Shown here in pieces: positions 1,498-21,632 of a DNA stretch of 33,975 nucleotides. The translations under genes and the position numbers were made by a program. The stretch spans positions 1-33,975 of the forward strand of contig JAJRVD010000012.1 in NCBI GenBank assembly GCA_024277375.1, in the 5' to 3' direction. The notes under the pieces are model-generated. The model had not been told where the DNA came from. It made no database searches and worked only from the letters and a program-made list of their open reading frames with translations. This DNA is from Candidatus Omnitrophota bacterium. GTDB taxonomy: Bacteria > Omnitrophota > Gorgyraeia > Tantalellales > Tantalellaceae. The first letter of the stretch is position 1. Each line of letters starts with the position of its first letter.

Positions 1498-1635
1498 CTG
1501 TCATAATGTAGGGGCTTGATTCATCAAGCCCGTTATATCGGGTTCGATAAATCGAACCCCTACAATATGCGGGGAGCCAGCCCCACACCATTCACTATTC
1601 ACCATTTATTGTTCGCGGCCGAAGGCCGCCCCTAC
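1498..1635. repeat. 129-bp family, copy 1 (core only) plus extra hairpin arms
   Basis: The 56-nt core at 1508-1563 is complete: GTAGGGG, CTTGATTCATCAAG, CCCGTTATATCGGG, TTCGATAAATCGAA, CCCCTAC. On the left only CTGTCATAAT of the terminal repeat remains, and the right end is missing. In its place come two other short hairpins: GGGGAGCCAGCCCC (1571-1584) and GCGGCCGAAGGCCGC followed by CCCTAC (about 1616-1635). The locus is a mosaic that fills the gap between plsY and der. Confidence 0.85.
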
Positions 1636-7420: not shown

Positions 7421-7448
7421 TTATTCTCCTCCGTTGTTTATCCTCTTA

Positions 7449-7619
7449 TTAGACTCATTCAAAACGCTGTTTTTTTATCAGACTGCGTCATAATGTAGGG
7501 GCTTGATTCATCAAGCCCGTTATATCGGGTTCGATGAATCGAACCCCTACAATATGTTGTATGCGGCCATCCGCGAAACAAATTACGGTACAGCCTGAAT
7601 GACGAGAATTCCATTTTGC
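7449..7619. repeat. 129-bp repeat, copy 2 (full length) with conserved flanks
   Basis: The element proper is 7475-7603, exactly 129 bp. It has a left end (TTATCAGACTGCGTCATAAT), the core at 7495-7550, a 31-nt segment with a GCGGCCATCCGC hairpin, and a right end (ATTACGGTACAGCCTGAATGAC). Conserved flanks extend the similarity. On the left, TTAGACTCAT and AAAACGCTGTTTTTTT are shared with the copy at 17402. On the right, TTCCATTTTGC is also shared with that copy. It fills the gap between the rpe stop (7628) and the pgm-like start (7420). Confidence 0.9.
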
Positions 7620-7627
7620 ACAAGTCT

Positions 7628-8269
7628 TTATCCTCTGAGACCCTTGATCGCCTCAGCATAACTTTCCTTACCAAAAACCGCGGTACCCGCCACCAGGACA
7701 TCCGCGCCGGCGGTTATCGCTTCTTTAGCGGTATCTTTTGTTATTCCGCCGTCTACCTGCACGTATCCGTTGAATTCCTTCTTAAGCTGTTCTATCTTTG
7801 GCATCATATCACGCATAAAACTCTGACCGGCAAACCCCGGCTCTACCGTCATCACGAGCACCATATCGACCTTATCCAGAAGGCCGTCGAGGGAGGACAA
7901 GTCTGTTCCGGGTTTTATGGACACCCCCGCCTTTTTCCCTTTAGATCGTATTTTAGCGATGGTTCCAGCCGGATCTTTACAGGCTTCAACGTGAAACGTA
8001 ATAAAATCGCTGCCCGCGTCGGCAAACTCCTCAACATACTGCCCCGGATCATCGATCATTAAATGCACATCAAAGATCAACTTGGTCGTCTGTCGTACCG
8101 CCCTGACGACAAGCGGTCCTATTGTAATATTAGGAACAAATTTTCCGTCCATAACATCTATATGAACCCAATCAGCTCCCGCGCTATCGATGGCCTTCAC
8201 TTCTTCGGCTAACCTGCCAAAATCCGCCGATAATATGCTCGGCGCTATCAATATCTTCTTATCAGACAT
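7628..8269 (-). CDS. rpe: Ribulose-phosphate 3-epimerase
   Basis: This TIM-barrel enzyme interconverts ribulose-5-phosphate and xylulose-5-phosphate in the pentose phosphate pathway. It supplies precursors for the PRPP used by the his and trp genes upstream. Metal and catalytic residues are visible: H37 and D39 in HIDVMDG, H69 in FDVHLM and D173 in VDGGI. IAPSILSADF at residues 8-17 and EPGFAGQSF at 143-151 are also diagnostic. At 213 residues it is complete. The ATG at 8269 follows AAAGGAG at about 9 nt. Repeat-filled gaps lie on both sides: 214 bp to the M16 peptidase and 207 bp to the phosphohexomutase. Confidence 0.96.
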   Translation of the reverse strand: MSDKKILIAPSILSADFGRLAEEVKAIDSAGADWVHIDVMDGKFVPNITIGPLVVRAVRQTTKLIFDVHLMIDDPGQYVEEFADAGSDFITFHVEACKDPAGTIAKIRSKGKKAGVSIKPGTDLSSLDGLLDKVDMVLVMTVEPGFAGQSFMRDMMPKIEQLKKEFNGYVQVDGGITKDTAKEAITAGADVLVAGTAVFGKESYAEAIKGLRG

Positions 8270-10185: not shown

Positions 10186-10989
10186 CTACACTTTATGAAC
10201 CGCATTGGCGATAGGCCGGATAAAAGCTTCAACCTTTCCCGCCAAGACATTCTTTTGGTTCAATCCTCTTTCTATGACCTTGATAAGCGCGCTTCCTACT
10301 ATCGCGCCATCGGATAACGAAGCGATTTTCCCGGCCTGCGCTGAGTTTGAGATACCGAACCCTACACAAACAGGTTTCCGAGTCATCTTTTTTAGTTTTT
10401 TAATTTCACCCGGCAACTTCGTCCCAAGATCTTTTCGCATGCCCGTAACACCTGTTAGCGAAACATAATAGATAAACCCGCGTGAAGCCTTCGCGATCTT
10501 TTTAAATCTGTCGGGAGGCGTCGTGGGCGCCGAGAGCTGAATAACACAAAAATCTTCTCTATCGGCGATGCCTATAAGCTCTCCGGCTTCTTCCATGGGA
10601 AGATCGGGAACTATAATACCATCGGCACCGGCGGAGACAGTGTCTCTGACAAAACGTTTAAGGCCATAATTAAAAACTATGTTGTAATACGTCATGAACA
10701 CAAAAGGCACGTGTGTCATCTTCCTGAGCTGTTTCACCATATCCAGAACTTTTTTTACAGTACAGCCGGCTTTAAGCGACCGTTCTATAGCTTTTTGTAT
10801 AGTGGGACCATCCGCTAACGGATCCGAAAATGGGATACCCAGCTCGATGATATCGGCTCCCGCTTTTTCAAGAGCACAGACAATTTTTTTGGTTGTGGCG
10901 ATGTCGGGATCCCCCGCCGTAATATACGGGATAAACGCCTTTTTGCCGGCTTTCCTTAATTTCTTGAATGTACTTTCTATTCTGTTCAT
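10186..10989 (-). CDS. trpA: Tryptophan synthase alpha chain
   Basis: TrpA cleaves indole-3-glycerol phosphate to indole and glyceraldehyde-3-phosphate, and passes the indole to TrpB through the alpha-beta tunnel. Both catalytic acids are in place at the canonical numbers: E49 in IIELGIPFSDP and D60 in PLADGPT. FIYYVSLTGVTG and VCVGFGIS form the phosphate-binding part of the barrel. At 267 residues it is complete. The ATG at 10989 follows AAAAGGAA. Unusually for a trp operon, trpB and trpA are split by 284 bp holding a repeat and a hairpin, so coupling of the two chains is looser than usual. Confidence 0.97.
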   Translation of the reverse strand: MNRIESTFKKLRKAGKKAFIPYITAGDPDIATTKKIVCALEKAGADIIELGIPFSDPLADGPTIQKAIERSLKAGCTVKKVLDMVKQLRKMTHVPFVFMTYYNIVFNYGLKRFVRDTVSAGADGIIVPDLPMEEAGELIGIADREDFCVIQLSAPTTPPDRFKKIAKASRGFIYYVSLTGVTGMRKDLGTKLPGEIKKLKKMTRKPVCVGFGISNSAQAGKIASLSDGAIVGSALIKVIERGLNQKNVLAGKVEAFIRPIANAVHKV

Positions 10990-11080: not shown

Positions 11081-11209
11081 CAATCAGACTGTGTCATAAT
11101 GTAAGGGCTTGATTCATCAAGCCCGTTATATCGGGTTCGATGAATCGAACCCCTACAATATATTGCATGCGGCCTTCCGCAAAACGAATTGCGACACAGC
11201 CTGAATGAC
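11081..11209. repeat. 129-bp repeat, copy 3 (full length)
   Basis: This copy is exactly 129 bp. The left end is CAATCAGACTGTGTCATAAT, the core is 11101-11156, and the right end is ATTGCGACACAGCCTGAATGAC. The outer stem carries one change (GTAAGGG instead of GTAGGGG) that breaks one pair, while the three arms are intact. The left side is fused to a GCTTTGCTCCTCGCAAT piece resembling the GTCAT-type repeat instead of the AAAACGCTG flank. It lies between trpB and trpA. Confidence 0.9.
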
Positions 11210-11273: not shown

Positions 11274-12464
11274 TCACATATTTTCGCTGATTATGTCTAT
11301 ATCCTTATCTCCCCGGCCCGAAAGGCACATGATAATTATGTCTTTCTTTTTAGTCTTTTTCGCCAATTTTTTGAGATAATATACCGCATGCGCGGATTCC
11401 AATGCCGGGATGATCCCTTCCGTTTCAGATAACAGCTTCACGCCCGCCAAAGCTTCGGCATCCGTCACTGACACATATTCAGCCCGTCCGGTTTCTTTGT
11501 AATACGAATGTTCCGGCCCTACACCCGGATAATCGAGTCCGGCCGAAATAGAATGCGCTAATTTTATCTGACCGTCAGCGTCTTCTAAAATAAAACTTTT
11601 GCTGCCATGCAATATGCCTACTTTACCTTTCCCCAAAGCTATCGCGTGATGATCGGTTTTTGCTCCCTCGCCCGCTGCCTCAACACCGATAAAGGAGACT
11701 TTTTTATCATTGTAAAACGGATAAAAAAGCCCCATTGCGTTACTCCCCCCTCCTACACACGCTACAAGATACGTTGGAAGCCTCTTTTCCTTTTTCGCTA
11801 TCTGCCTCTTCGCCTCAATCCCGATCACTGCTTGAAAATCCCGCACCATAAGGGGATACGGATGAGGACCCGCGACCGAACCTATCACATAAAAAGTATC
11901 TCTAACATTGGTCACCCAATCTCTTATCGCCTCGTTCATAGCGTCTTTAAGCGTACACGATCCGGATGAAACGGGAATAACCTTCGTTCCCAAAAGCTTC
12001 ATCCGAAATACATTAAGACGCTGGCGCTTCATGTCTTCCGTCCCCATGTAAACTTCGCATTTTAAACCGAAAAGCGCCGCGACCGTAGCTGTCGCCACAC
12101 CATGCTGACCGGCACCCGTTTCAGCTATAAGTCGTTTCTTGCCCATTTCAACCGCCAAAAGCGCCTGCCCCAAAGTATTATTTATCTTGTGCGCGCCCGT
12201 ATGGAGAAGATCTTCCCGTTTCATATAGATCTTCCCTCCGCCTAATTTAGCTGTGAGTTTTTCGGCAAAATATAGCGGAGTTACCCGGCCGGCATACTCC
12301 GTCAGGTAATGCTTAAGGGTTTTCTTGAATGAACTCTTTTTGCATACACTCTTGTATGCCGCGATCAACTCCCGCACCGCAGGCATAAGCGTCTCGGGAA
12401 TGTACTTTCCTCCGAATATTCCAAAATAACCTTTTTCATCGGGTACTCTAGGCATTTTTCGCAT
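11274..12464 (-). CDS. trpB: Tryptophan synthase beta chain
   Basis: TrpB is the PLP enzyme that condenses indole with serine to give tryptophan. The PLP lysine is K93 in [14 protein letters not shown] (numbered from the start chosen here), and the phosphate-binding loop GGGSNAMG is intact. [15 protein letters not shown] near the N-terminus is the TrpB (not TrpB2) signature. I chose the ATG at 12464, giving 396 residues, because AAGGAG (12475-12480) lies 10 nt upstream. A TTG at 12473 is too close to that site, and the ATG at 12455 is too far. The start lies inside the last codons of trpF, a tight translational coupling. Confidence 0.96.
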
Positions 12465-13113
12465 TATCCACAAACTCCTTTATCATATCCTCACTTTTTA
12501 TCCCCGGAGAACTTTCGACCCCGCTGGAAGTGTCAACACCGTAAGGTCGTACAACCCGTACGGCCTCCGAAACACTTTCAGGCGTCAATCCGCCGGCTAT
12601 AAAAAACGGTTTATTAATATTCTCTCTCCTAAGTATCTCCCAATTAAATTTCGCTCCGGTCCCGCCTGATATTTTTGGATGAAAGGTGTCAAAAACAAAA
12701 AAATCAACCTCGGTATAATCGTCCAGAAAAAAATCGCCAATGGGCAGGATCTCTTCCTTTACCTTGAAAGCCTTAATGATCTTGATCGAACGGCCATATT
12801 TTTCCAGCATGATCTTTTTCAGAATACCGCAATAACCGGGATCTTCGGCGCCGTGAAGCTGTACGTAATTCAAATTACAATGCCCGGCGATTTCCGCTAC
12901 ACCCTGGGGAGCCTTATTACTAAAAAGGCCCGTAATCGCGACTGTGCCCCTTAATTCCTCCGGCATATCAGAAATGATCTTACTGACTTCATCCGGCGAT
13001 ACGGCACGAGGTGTATCTTCTATAAAAATAAAACCTATGAGATCAGAGCCGCTTTCACAAGCCGCTACAGCATCTTCACTATTAGTTATCCCGCAGATCT
13101 TTACTTTAACCAC
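12448..13113 (-). CDS. trpF: Phosphoribosylanthranilate isomerase
   Basis: TrpF performs the Amadori rearrangement of phosphoribosylanthranilate to CdRP, the fourth step of tryptophan synthesis. The catalytic cysteine C7 is in VKICGIT, and the catalytic aspartate D142 is in FVFDTFHP, followed by the phosphate-binding [19 protein letters not shown] and [10 protein letters not shown] complete the barrel. The length is 221 residues. It starts 2 nt after the trpC stop, and its last 17 bases overlap the trpB start. TrpC and TrpF are separate here, not fused as in enterics. Confidence 0.96.
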
Positions 13114-16971: not shown

Positions 16972-17349
16972 TTAATATACTTCCTTCGGGTCAAAAACAC
17001 GTTCGCTTTCGACTACTTCCTCGCCTTTGTCGTTTATCTTCTTAAAATAACAGCTAAAATATCCTTCATGGCAAGCGGCTCTTTCCTGTTCCACCTTAAA
17101 AAGCACAGAATTATCTGCGCAATCGATAGATACTTCTTTTACCGTTTGCACGCAACCTGAAGTTTCGCCCTTTATCATAACGCGGCCTTTGGATCTGCGA
17201 AACACATATATCTTTTTCTCTTCGAGCGTTTTCTTCAGAGCTTCGGCGTTCATATAACACAACGTAAGAACTTCACCTGACTTCACGTCCTGTATTATCG
17301 CCGGGATAAGCCCCTTCTCGTCAAAATTCAATTTATCGACAAAACTCAT
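16972..17349 (-). CDS. hisI: Phosphoribosyl-AMP cyclohydrolase
   Basis: HisI opens the purine ring of phosphoribosyl-AMP, the third step of histidine synthesis. At 125 residues it is stand-alone, without the HisE pyrophosphohydrolase domain found in HisIE fusions. IKGETSGCVQTV (59-70) and the zinc cysteines C93 and C100 in ACHEGYFSC are clear. Odd point: the usual metal motif DCDxD reads DCADN here (residues 76-80), so only the first aspartate is kept in register. The tryptophan usual at the start of the WxxSRSR block is phenylalanine (FRRSKGR). I still call it functional because of context and the other motifs. A strong AAAGGAG site precedes the ATG. Confidence 0.9.
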   Translation of the reverse strand: MSFVDKLNFDEKGLIPAIIQDVKSGEVLTLCYMNAEALKKTLEEKKIYVFRRSKGRVMIKGETSGCVQTVKEVSIDCADNSVLFKVEQERAACHEGYFSCYFKKINDKGEEVVESERVFDPKEVY

Positions 17350-17373: not shown

Positions 17374-17546
17374 TTAGACTCATACAAAACGCTGTTTTTT
17401 TCAATCAGACCGTGTCATAATGCAGGGGCTTGACCCATCAAGCCCGTTATATCGGGTTCGATAAATCGAACCCCTACAATATATTGTATGCGGCCATCCG
17501 CAAAACGAATTATGACACAGCCCGAATGACAAAAGTTCCATTTTGC
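17374..17546. repeat. 129-bp repeat, copy 4 (full length) with conserved flanks
   Basis: The element proper is 17402-17530, exactly 129 bp. The left end is CAATCAGACCGTGTCATAAT, the core is 17422-17477, and the right end is ATTATGACACAGCCCGAATGAC. Arm 1 has changed only in the loop (CTTGACCCATCAAG), keeping five pairs. The outer stem has one change (GCAGGGG). The flanks TTAGACTCAT with AAAACGCTGTTTTTTT and TTCCATTTTGC match copy 2. It fills the gap between the hisF stop and the hisI start. Confidence 0.9.
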
Positions 17547-17556
17547 GGGATCCTAT

Positions 17557-18315
17557 CTAGATCCTGACCGCTACCCCCTCGCGAACCAAATATTCTTTTA
17601 CTTCTCGCACAGTGAATTCTTTGAAATGGAAAACAGAAGCGGCTAATGCCGCGTCCGCCATGCCCTCCGTAAGAGCTTCTTTAAAATGCCGGAGAGTTCC
17701 GCATCCCCCTGAAGCTATTATCGGTATATTCACCGCCTTACTTATCGCGCTTGTAAGCTCTATATCGTATCCGTTTTTTGTTCCGTCACAGTCCATGCTC
17801 GTAAGCAGTATCTCACCGGCGCCAAGACTTTCAACCTGACGGACCCACTCGACGGCATCGATACCCGTTGCCTCTCGGCCGCCTCTTATATACACTTCCC
17901 ATGAGCCCGTATCTCGTCTTTTAGCGTCGACGGCGACAACGGTACACTGCGCTCCGAACTTCCGACTCGCTTCACGAACCAACTCAGGCCGCTTGACCGC
18001 GGACGTATTCATCGAAACTTTATCGCATCCGGCATTTAACAGTTCTCTTATATCGTCATTGGACGATATCCCGCCGCCGACCGTAAACGGCATAAAAACC
18101 TGTTCGGCCACACGGCTCACGACATCAACCATAGTTTTACGATTTTCGTGGCTGGCGGTAATGTCCAGAAACACCAACTCATCCGCGCCGGCTTCATCGT
18201 AAACTTTCGCGTTCTCTACCGGGTCCCCCGCGTCACGCAGGTTAAGAAAATTCACTCCCTTTACAACGCGCCCTTCTTTAACATCAAGACACGGAATTAT
18301 CCGTTTTGCCAGCAT
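17557..18315 (-). CDS. hisF: Imidazole glycerol phosphate synthase subunit HisF
   Basis: HisF is the cyclase half of IGP synthase. It uses ammonia from HisH to turn PRFAR into imidazole glycerol phosphate and AICAR. Both catalytic aspartates stand at the canonical positions: D11 in [15 protein letters not shown] and D130 in [15 protein letters not shown] (77-83) and IIASGGCG are the phosphate-binding loops of the half-barrels. At 252 residues it is normal. The ATG lies inside the 3' end of hisA (32-bp overlap), and the product ends just before repeat copy 4. Confidence 0.97.
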
Positions 18316-19024: not shown

Positions 19025-19629
19025 AATTTTAAAAAGTTCTCCAATACTTTTAAACCGTTTTTCTGTGACCTCTCAGGATGGAACTGAACGGCATAAACAT
19101 TATCTTTCCATAGAGCCGACGTATACGTAACGCTATACTCCGTCTCACCGGCCGTAAGTTCTTCTTCAGGGGTATCACAATAGTATGAATGCACAAAATA
19201 AAAATAGCTCTCGTCGTCGAGCCCCGCGAATATCGGACACTCTTTTTTCTTCACATTTACGGTGTTCCACCCTATCTGCGGAACTTTCATCCCATCAGCG
19301 GCGGGAAATAATTTTACGTCTCCCGAAACAAGCCCCAGGCAATCACAGCCTCCCGCCTCTTCGCTTCGCTCAAAAAGAAGCTGAAGCCCCAGGCATATGC
19401 CCAAAAAGGGTTTACCGCTTTTTATCCCGTCTTTCAGCGGCTCCATTAAACCTCTTTCGGCCAAGCCCGCCATCGCGTCTTTAGAAGACCCGACACCCGG
19501 AAAAACTATTTTCGCGGCTGACTTCAGGCTCGAGGCGTCTTCACATACTTTTACTTCCTCGCCCAAATGCACAAAAGCGTTATAAACACTCTTTAGATTT
19601 CCCGAACCATAGTCTATGATCGCGATCAT
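19021..19629 (-). CDS. hisH: Imidazole glycerol phosphate synthase glutaminase HisH
   Basis: HisH supplies ammonia to HisF. The glutaminase triad is complete: C79 in GICLGLQ, then H184 and E186 in VQFHPERSQ. The N-terminal IIDYGSGNLKSVYNA is the family opening, VFPGVGSSKDAM builds the oxyanion region, and VPQIGWN is the HisF-interface segment. The length is 202 residues. It overlaps hisB and hisA by 4 bp each, giving an unbroken hisB-H-A-F block. Confidence 0.97.
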   Translation of the reverse strand: MIAIIDYGSGNLKSVYNAFVHLGEEVKVCEDASSLKSAAKIVFPGVGSSKDAMAGLAERGLMEPLKDGIKSGKPFLGICLGLQLLFERSEEAGGCDCLGLVSGDVKLFPAADGMKVPQIGWNTVNVKKKECPIFAGLDDESYFYFVHSYYCDTPEEELTAGETEYSVTYTSALWKDNVYAVQFHPERSQKNGLKVLENFLKL

Positions 19630-20276
19630 AAAATGCCTTTACTCGAAGGTACTTCTCCCACTCTACGCGCGTCTATACGCGTCGCGAGATCAAGCGCTAT
19701 ACCCAGGGCCTTAAAAACCGCCTCAAGATAATGATGCATATCGCCTTCTCCGGATATCTCGATGTGCAGGTTTATGCCCAGCTTTTTCGAGAAGCTATCC
19801 AGAAGATCCTTGGCAAAATGCATAGAGTAACCTTCATCATCGCTTATCGCCCCGGCATGCTCCCCGCGTCTTTCCTCAAAACTGAACGCGGCGCGATTCG
19901 ACAGGTCTACCGCGACTCTGGCCTTTGCCATGTCCATCGGAACGTCCGCTGAAGCTGTCCTCACAATGCCCCTGCAGTCGCCAAGAGCTTTTTTAAAAGC
20001 CTCGCCCAAAGCGATCCCTATATCTTCATTAAGGTGATGATTGTCTACCTCAGTGTCACCTGCCGCTGTAAGCTTTATATCGAAATATCCGTGATAAGAG
20101 AACAGCGTAAGCATATGATTCAGGAAACCTATTGGCGTATCAATTTTGCTCGCGCCGGTACCGTCTACGTCTAAAAGCGGTATTTCTATTTGCGTCTCTT
20201 TAGATTTTCGTTCATAAGAAGTTTTTCTAGCGCCTGTGTTCTCAGCTTTTTGCTTTTTCTTTCTGAATAATCCCAT
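19626..20276 (-). CDS. hisB: Imidazoleglycerol-phosphate dehydratase
   Basis: HisB dehydrates imidazole glycerol phosphate to imidazole acetol phosphate, using two manganese ions. The metal motifs are there: HHLNED (first HHxxE), the YSMHFAKDLLDSF segment and MHHYLEAVFKALG (second HHxxE). It lacks the N-terminal histidinol-phosphatase domain of the enteric fusion. Two oddities: a basic N-terminal extension of about 20 residues (GLFRKKKQK...) before the domain proper, and an asparagine in GFLNHML where the family usually has aspartate (FLDHM or FFDHM). The ATG at 20276 follows AAGGAGG, so the extension is probably translated. The length is 216 residues against about 195 for single-domain homologues. 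Confidence 0.94.
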   Translation of the reverse strand: MGLFRKKKQKAENTGARKTSYERKSKETQIEIPLLDVDGTGASKIDTPIGFLNHMLTLFSYHGYFDIKLTAAGDTEVDNHHLNEDIGIALGEAFKKALGDCRGIVRTASADVPMDMAKARVAVDLSNRAAFSFEERRGEHAGAISDDEGYSMHFAKDLLDSFSKKLGINLHIEISGEGDMHHYLEAVFKALGIALDLATRIDARRVGEVPSSKGIL

Positions 20277-20309: not shown

Positions 20310-20404
20310 GGTAAAACGCTGTTTTTTTTAGCCAGACTGTGTCATAATGTAGGGGCTTGACTCATCAAGCCCGTTATATCGGGTTCGATAAATCGAACCC
20401 CTAC
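20310..20404. repeat. 129-bp repeat, copy 5 (truncated on the right)
   Basis: The left flank (GGACTCAG, AAAACGCTGTTTTTTTT), the left end (CCAGACTGTGTCATAAT) and the whole core (20349-20404) are present. The copy stops at the last base of the outer stem, 4 bp before the hisD stop codon, so the 31-nt segment and right end are missing. Arm 1 is CTTGACTCATCAAG, again a loop-only change. It lies between hisD and hisB. Confidence 0.9.
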
Positions 20405-20408
20405 TGGT

Positions 20409-21632
20409 TTATTCACATCTCACTTTTATAGATTCCCAGTGTTGTTGCAATTGCTCAAGTTCCGTAAGTTCTTTTACCCAGCCAGCTGACGCGCAAAGCG
20501 CTTTTTTAGAATACGATATCGTATGGGAACTTTTAATAAAACTCCTGAGATTAAGCCCCGAATAAAAACTGGCCGTGCCGCCGGTCGGAAGTACGTGGCT
20601 CGGTCCTGCGATATAATCGCCAACGGCGACCGGTGTATACTGTCCCAAAAATACGGCTCCCGCGTTAGTTATGTTCTTCAAGAGTCTGTTAGGTGACTTT
20701 ACCATAAGCTGCAGATGTTCCGGCGCTATCATATTGGATATTTTAGCGGCCTCATCAAGATTCTTGACCTTTATCAAATACCCCCTGACATTCGTATCTT
20801 CTCGAAGAACATCATATACTTTCTTCGATGGCGTAACCAGAATAGAAAGCCCCTTATGATGTTCCGCCTGAGCCATAAGATCTTTCTTCAGATAATCAAT
20901 ATTAGCGTGATGATTTGCTATTATCAATACTTCGCTTGGCCCCGCCAGCATATCTATATCACAGTACCCAAAGACCTGACGCTTAGCTTCGGTTACGTAT
21001 TCATTCCCCGGCCCGACGATCTTCTTGACCTTGGGTATTGTTTTTGTGCCAAAAGCCAACGCGGCGATAGCCTGGGCTCCCCCGACTTTATAGATCTCAT
21101 CAACCTTTAAAAGATTTGCCACTACCAGTATGTGCGGATCGATACTGCCGTATTTGTTTGGTGGAGACACCATCACAACTTTATTTACCCCCGCGAGCTT
21201 AGCCGGCAAAACCGTCATATACACACTGGAAACAAGAGGAACCGTGCCGGAAGGAACATATACGCCCACATTCTCTATCGGAGTGAACTTCTCGCCCAGC
21301 TCTATCCCGGGCTCATGCTTTATCCTCCATGATTTAGGAGCCTGTTTTGTATAGAACTTGTTTATGTTCTTTATGACCGCCTTGAGCGTATTCACTATCT
21401 CGGGTTTAATATCCTGATAAGCCCCGCTGATCTCGGCCTCGCTTACACGCAGATCTTTTTTCTTAAGTTCTATTTTATCGAACTTTTTTGTGAATTTGAT
21501 CAAAGCGTTATCGCCTTCAGTACGCACTTTGTCTATGATACCTGAGACCGTTTTCTGAAGACGTACCCTGCCATGATCGTCTCTGTCTATCAGGCGATCA
21601 AATGTTTTGCTTCCAACTTTAATACATCTCAT
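20409..21632 (-). CDS. hisD: Histidinol dehydrogenase
   Basis: HisD oxidises histidinol to histidine in two NAD-dependent steps with a bound zinc. GPGNEYVTEAKRQVFG and IDMLAGPSEV form the family signature. Zinc and catalytic residues are seen in the AQAEH segment, APEHLQL and GDYIAGPSHVLPTGG. The C-terminal zinc histidine survives in LEQLQQHWES, although the usual AEGLxAHA wording is lost. At 407 residues it is about 20 shorter than common homologues, mainly at the N-terminus. It overlaps alaS by 4 bp (ATGA) and is followed by repeat copy 5. Confidence 0.96.
   Translation of the reverse strand: MRCIKVGSKTFDRLIDRDDHGRVRLQKTVSGIIDKVRTEGDNALIKFTKKFDKIELKKKDLRVSEAEISGAYQDIKPEIVNTLKAVIKNINKFYTKQAPKSWRIKHEPGIELGEKFTPIENVGVYVPSGTVPLVSSVYMTVLPAKLAGVNKVVMVSPPNKYGSIDPHILVVANLLKVDEIYKVGGAQAIAALAFGTKTIPKVKKIVGPGNEYVTEAKRQVFGYCDIDMLAGPSEVLIIANHHANIDYLKKDLMAQAEHHKGLSILVTPSKKVYDVLREDTNVRGYLIKVKNLDEAAKISNMIAPEHLQLMVKSPNRLLKNITNAGAVFLGQYTPVAVGDYIAGPSHVLPTGGTASFYSGLNLRSFIKSSHTISYSKKALCASAGWVKELTELEQLQQHWESIKVRCE

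Follow-up and report, generated by a model that had tools for sequence, protein, structure and literature searches.

A REPIN and its probable MITE carrier in a Candidatus Omnitrophota genome

REP-associated tyrosine transposases (RAYTs, HUH/Y1) recognise GTAG-tagged REP hairpins as single-stranded DNA. What defines a REP is a hairpin whose GTAG foot stays unpaired, and two REPs facing outward make up a REPIN (PMC3116915; PMC3733652). The closest described relatives of the repeat analysed here are the HH-type REPINs or GTAG dimers (Bertels & Rainey 2011, PMC3116915; Di Nocera et al. 2013, PMC3733652), with which it shares inverted GTAG palindromes, outward tags and a short spacer. It also resembles them in its high copy number, intergenic location, presence of RAYT genes both here and in related genomes, and heterodimeric build with complementary stem changes. 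Unlike in those systems, the unit that has moved most is a surrounding MITE, and of the cognate RAYT no more than a remnant was found.

Three other systems are comparable in part. Long palindromes with an inserted REP dimer have been recorded for Anabaena variabilis (GTAG-15) and H. neapolitanus (CGTC-1; PMC3733652), so the nested arrangement described here has precedent. As in those cases, the REP dimer occupies the middle of a larger inverted repeat, of which no convincing empty version was found; the difference is that the outer repeat here has been identified as a MITE that makes a target duplication of 3 bp and that occurs in relatives with other cargo. The combination of GTAG with a perfect palindrome is similar to the REP type termed ‘group 3’ in work on REPtrons and TnpA_REP (Corneloup et al. 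2021, PMC8266576), and one RAYT of this genome (locus L014) is bracketed by its own GTAG REPs, but no intact REPtron of the present REP type was found in the assembly. Finally, some MITE right arms carry ~25-bp tandem expansions in the manner of BrickBuilt of Porphyromonas gingivalis, a minisatellite in a MITE (PMC4596501). The MITE here differs in also holding a REPIN.

Anatomy of the repeat

The window, i.e. the whole stretch of 33,975 nucleotides that was analysed, holds five copies of a 56-nt core, beginning at 1508, 7495, 11101, 17422 and 20349. REPINs are a known kind of bacterial selfish repeat, though the nested setting of this one is uncommon. Taken as a whole, the explanation we hold to be very likely is that the 56-mer is a REPIN, the probable cargo of a MITE, whose kept structure is two hairpins rather than a junction. 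The features are as follows.

7495 to 7550, plus strand: REPIN core (GTAG-H1, 8-nt linker GTTATATC, H2-CTAC), from sequence, with 187 exact cores genome-wide
7495 to 7518, plus strand: REP H1, a GTAG foot and 8-bp hairpin GGGCTTGA-TTCA-TCAAGCCC; DNA fold with GTAG unpaired, -8.3 kcal/mol
7527 to 7550, minus strand: REP H2, GTAGGGGTTCGATTCATCGAACCC, GTAG-first on this strand, with two compensated pairs relative to H1, from sequence and fold
7479 to 7597, unstranded: layer 2, a 119-bp MITE with TIRs at 7479-7494 (CAGACTGCGTCATAAT) and 7582-7597 (ATTACGGTACAGCCTG)
7447 to 7626, unstranded: layer 3, an outer element of ~180 bp
7437 to 7446, plus strand: layer 3 target duplication TTTATCCTCT, 10 bp, left copy
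7627 to 7636, plus strand: layer 3 target duplication TTTATCCTCT, 10 bp, right copy
1508 to 1563, plus strand: REPIN core copy 1, whose left TIR is degenerate and whose right arm has been lost
11101 to 11156, plus strand: REPIN core copy 3 (GTAA foot) in MITE 11085-11203, with AAT on either side; neighbouring genes 10186-10989 and 11274-12473
17422 to 17477, plus strand: REPIN core copy 4 (GCAG foot) in MITE 17406-17524; neighbouring genes 16972-17349 and 17557-18315
20349 to 20404, plus strand: REPIN core copy 5, which has a left TIR (20333-20348) and has lost the right arm; neighbouring genes 19626-20276 and 20409-21632

The first-pass annotation had quoted the 56-mer exactly, and its division into 7+14+14+14+7 nucleotides is borne out on the letters. 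The arm-1 loops it listed (TTCA, CCCA and CTCA) and the outer-stem changes it placed in copies 3 and 4 are likewise correct: the loops of the five window copies are TTCA, TTCA, TTCA, CCCA and CTCA in order, and the changes are G4A in copy 3 and T2C in copy 4. In each half of the core, a palindrome of 20-40 nt stands on an unpaired GTAG tetranucleotide, and the halves form an inverted doublet with outward tags and a short spacer. The unit is both numerous and extragenic, all of which are hallmarks of the GTAG superfamily. The exact H1 hairpin GGGCTTGAT-N2-4-ATCAAGCCC occurs at 227 sites genome-wide, while the 187 exact cores correspond to GTAGGGG...CCCCTAC units of 52-62 nt; the number of genomic sites that the REPIN has reached is about 190 to 230 or more. 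Only 6 of 129 sampled copies lie inside ORFs predicted with a crude caller. The genome sample comprised 762 kb in stretches partly picked around matches, from which densities would be biased upward and were not used. A search for solitary halves (up to 5 mismatches) was contaminated by overlapping false matches, of which only cases checked by eye were kept. No further carrier emerged from an exact scan of GTDB contigs, which may omit near relatives of the window, and the literature yielded nothing useful on the letters GTAGGGGC.

Layer 2 qualifies as a MITE, being a short non-coding element with TIRs and a target duplication of fixed length. The 16-bp TIR CAGRCTGTGTCRTAAT is present on both sides of 98 of 130 sampled cores. 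Identical 3-bp flanks were found for 27 of 50 layer-2-only copies, compared with 7.75 after shuffling, whereas flanks identical at 2 and 4 bp numbered 2 and 0. Together, the TIRs and the excess of 3-bp flanks identify layer 2 as a mobile element with a 3-bp target duplication. The copy at 7479-7597, which lies within layer 3, has the flanks TAT and AAT, with no exact match. Some MITE copies split another repeat in two, as in ...CCCGCGAA-element-GAAAGCGGG... Tandem expansions of ~25 bp (CAACATATTGTACGCGGCCATCCGC type) form a minisatellite in the right arm of some MITEs (L042:5508-5650, 8360, 11600 and 18480; L029:89). No transposase with a CAGRCTGTGTC TIR was detected in the 762 kb of the home genome or in 20 TIR loci of relatives. 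The sole ~1.4-kb TIR pair (L133:629-2039, genome G002) was rejected as the autonomous partner of the MITE, as it encloses a Fic-like ORF (HPFSDGNGR motif) rather than a transposase; it possibly represents gene capture by the TIR element.

Layer 3 surrounds about half of the MITE-borne copies. Direct repeats of at least 8 bp flank 26 of 49 such elements, compared with 2.3% of shuffled pairs. A Shine-Dalgarno-like motif within 45 nt, directed away from the element, accompanies 40 of the 49; the corresponding figures are 11 of 55 for layer-2-only copies and 7% for random places. This suggests that layer 3 picks targets near ribosome-binding sites. Many copies would have spread further inside this larger outer element, as its anatomy and its duplications of ~8-15 bp indicate.

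Transposase association and capture

The H1/H2 REP type can be tied to RAYTs by a coding remnant that lies between H1 and H2 and by GTAG-type hairpins near RAYT-like genes of relatives. The home genome contains six Y1_Tnp matches, and the four of these proteins that were scanned resemble RAYTs along most of the NF047646 profile, with scores below its cut-off. No intact RAYT-like gene directly flanked by H1/H2 occurs among these matches. The remnant, ...YYEHVIRSEKALTRIREYIENNLPAEQIDFEQFYDG* (44 codons, L030:7263-7394), is enclosed by H1 and H2 (L030:7238-7431) and matches positions 102-130 of NCBIfam NF047646 REP_Tyr_transpos with E=3e-5 (24 bits, cut-off 80). Shorter relatives of it lie between H1 and H2 on contigs C81 and C72. 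Among relatives’ RAYT-like loci found through the remnant, 21 of 29 hold GTAG-type hairpins in the fetched locus, a figure without a matched background. The cognate H1/H2 RAYT appears to survive only as a remnant, as far as the assembly shows, and the ancestral REPIN was probably mobile through this predicted enzyme. The RAYT of L014 is bracketed by a different GTAG REP type, GTAGGAGCGGCCTCCGGCCGC. A second REP type, GCGGCC...GGCCGCCCCTAC, occurs at 1616-1633 of the window and at L014:1409-1970, where a close form of it brackets a RAYT gene.

The REPIN was probably captured by the MITE and spread as its cargo. The direction of capture rests on relatives, since 762 kb of the home genome contained no clear REPIN-free MITE and one candidate (L045). 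The MITE TIR is also present in G002, G003 and G020, where the short elements that can be delimited hold other cargo and no REPIN; several have 3-bp duplications. In G020, the H1 REP occurs at ~20 places outside the MITE TIR, partnered by a different second REP. Within the home genome, the linker GTTATATC is found in 73 of 98 cores with two TIRs and in none of six cores without either TIR, all of which have other linkers. With MITE and REP apart in relatives and the linkers split in this way, the simplest reading is one capture followed by spread of the cargo. A single REPIN with the linker GTTATATC came to sit at the centre of the MITE, whose anatomy and 3-bp duplication are shown, and a predicted DDE-type transposase would then have moved the MITE, copying the REPIN through intergenic space.

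Two further arrangements were observed. On visual inspection, at least six of the G020 H1 REPs lie within an inverted repeat unrelated to this MITE, TTAGTTAACACTGAAAAACC... (L103, L109, L110, L119, L120 and L122), which suggests independent nesting of a REPIN in another lineage. Naked REPIN tandem arrays with the linkers GAGACAAAC or GAAACAAATATACC, spaced at ~114-120 bp and with repeated GTAGGGGC-GAACAAAATAAT units ahead of them, are present at L038:1-260 and L067:1-350 (C108).

Conservation of the hairpin stems

Divergence from consensus was measured in 102 copies picked by the MITE right arm, not by the core. Stems diverge by 1.0-1.35%, the linker by 2.7% and the loops by 8.6-14.5%, while the MITE arms and TIRs diverge by 10-12%. 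The GTAG/CTAC feet diverge by 2.7-4.2%, their columns being 96-97% conserved. Stems are therefore not decaying as fast as loops, and the proposal of selection on arm structure holds insofar as the hairpin stems are conserved relative to their surroundings, but the junction is not what is kept. This is a real sign that the stems are under constraint or homogenisation. Capture by itself does not account for a core at ~1% next to MITE arms at ~11%; if core and arms spread together, the stems must have been held or homogenised.

One alternative is that the hairpin is selected as RNA, in mRNA 3'-end protection or processing within operons, its mobility being only historical. We regard this as somewhat unlikely. 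In addition to the contrast of 1% with 11%, it would be in keeping with the genomic context: of 123 intergenic copies, 107 have neighbouring genes that run in the same direction, divergent spacers are avoided (5 copies against 12-15 expected, both counts from a crude ORF caller), and all five window copies lie between adjacent same-strand genes. However, compensation within the genome is nearly absent and most stem changes are not retained as G-U. The repeat also lacks the T run of an intrinsic terminator, both orientations are found among copies, and the core has no family match in Rfam 15 at the gathering score.

A less likely alternative is repeated insertion of REPINs at one preferred site in older MITEs, the core simply being younger than the arms. 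Such a history would fit stems that are ten times less diverged than the arms and the REP dimers recorded within long palindromes (PMC3733652). It would also fit the absence of linkage between variants in the core loops and those in the arms (none of 54 pairs at p<0.01, compared with 7.4% of right-arm pairs, a comparison of low power). The lack of a convincing REPIN-free MITE copy in 762 kb speaks against it, as do borders and a linker that are identical in most copies.

The unlinked loop and arm variants are also compatible, at the same low power, with exchange between cores. Several copies show hairpin-type changes, namely an inverted linker GATATAAC or replacement of CCCCTAC by CCCGATATA, the latter of which lengthens the H2 palindrome. 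These are consistent with template switching on an extruded hairpin and may also be subfamilies. It is a distinctly improbable extension that the element is doubly mobile, by two unrelated transposases (a DDE enzyme through its TIRs and an HUH RAYT through its REPs), with the core of hundreds of copies homogenised almost to identity in a RAYT-linked or hairpin-templated manner while the MITE drifts.

Fold of the core

Each half of the core combines a GTAG foot with a perfect 8-9-bp stem and folds with GTAG unpaired. Read each from its own GTAG, H1 GTAGGGGCTTGATTCATCAAGCCC and H2 GTAGGGGTTCGATTCATCGAACCC differ at four positions, which make up two compensated pairs (C8-G21 to T-A, T10-A19 to C-G). 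REPINs of relatives (G002, G008, G014, G020) retain the layout GTAG-GGG..CCC-linker-GGG..CCC-CTAC with wholly different stems, which are self-complementary, a few with one or two mismatches. Their linkers of 10-14 nt are mostly unpaired, with 0-3 pairs at the ends. This covariation, between H1 and H2 and across genomes, supports two separate hairpins. Copies within the genome show almost no covariation, presumably owing to their recent origin; double changes that restore pairing occur as isolated instances (7-22, 38-47, 25-32).

The core folds far beyond chance (z = -6.35 as DNA, -8.9 as RNA; 0 of 200 dinucleotide shuffles equally stable), and its predicted minimum-energy fold is a single long imperfect hairpin. 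Calculated without coaxial stacking, the long hairpin, two hairpins and four-way junction have energies of -36.5, -26.1 and -23.0 kcal/mol in RNA and -16.0, -16.3 and -13.4 kcal/mol in DNA. The junction is the least stable of the three in both, but energies of this kind are not decisive alone and the decision rests on variation among copies. In 63 distinct 56-nt cores from the home genome, one-sided changes number 12 at the junction-only pair 25-32 (4 still pairing), 7 at the junction-only pair 7-50 (1 still pairing) and 26 at the outer GTAG/CTAC pairs (3 still pairing). All three self-complementary 14-mers of the first-pass annotation can form, arm 2 only over 4 bp (CCCG/CGGG); its view that arms change only in their loops holds for the five window copies but not for many copies, in which pairs 38-47 and 25-32 are often broken. 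These arms correspond to the tips of the two REP stems and the linker.

A selected four-way DNA or RNA junction that switches with the two-hairpin form and is read by a junction-binding or RNA-processing protein is highly improbable: its arms can form, the GGG/CCC blocks common to both folds are nearly invariant and folding energy is very low, but it is the least stable fold, its pairs 25-32, 7-50, 1-56, 2-55 and 4-53 are broken one-sidedly, and relatives’ linkers mostly lack arm 2 beyond the GGG/CCC blocks. On energies and uncompensated changes together, the junction is rejected as the maintained structure, and the proposed two-state switch is not supported either. Judging from sequence comparison, the conserved structure is two separate hairpins with unpaired GTAG feet.

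The nested REPIN bears on the spread of REPs and REPINs and on their retention by hosts. The measurably diverged MITE arms provide a built-in yardstick, against which conservation of the REP stems is about tenfold higher, so that constraint and homogenisation can be directly tested against one another. With relatives that hold MITE and REP apart, the capture itself is traceable.
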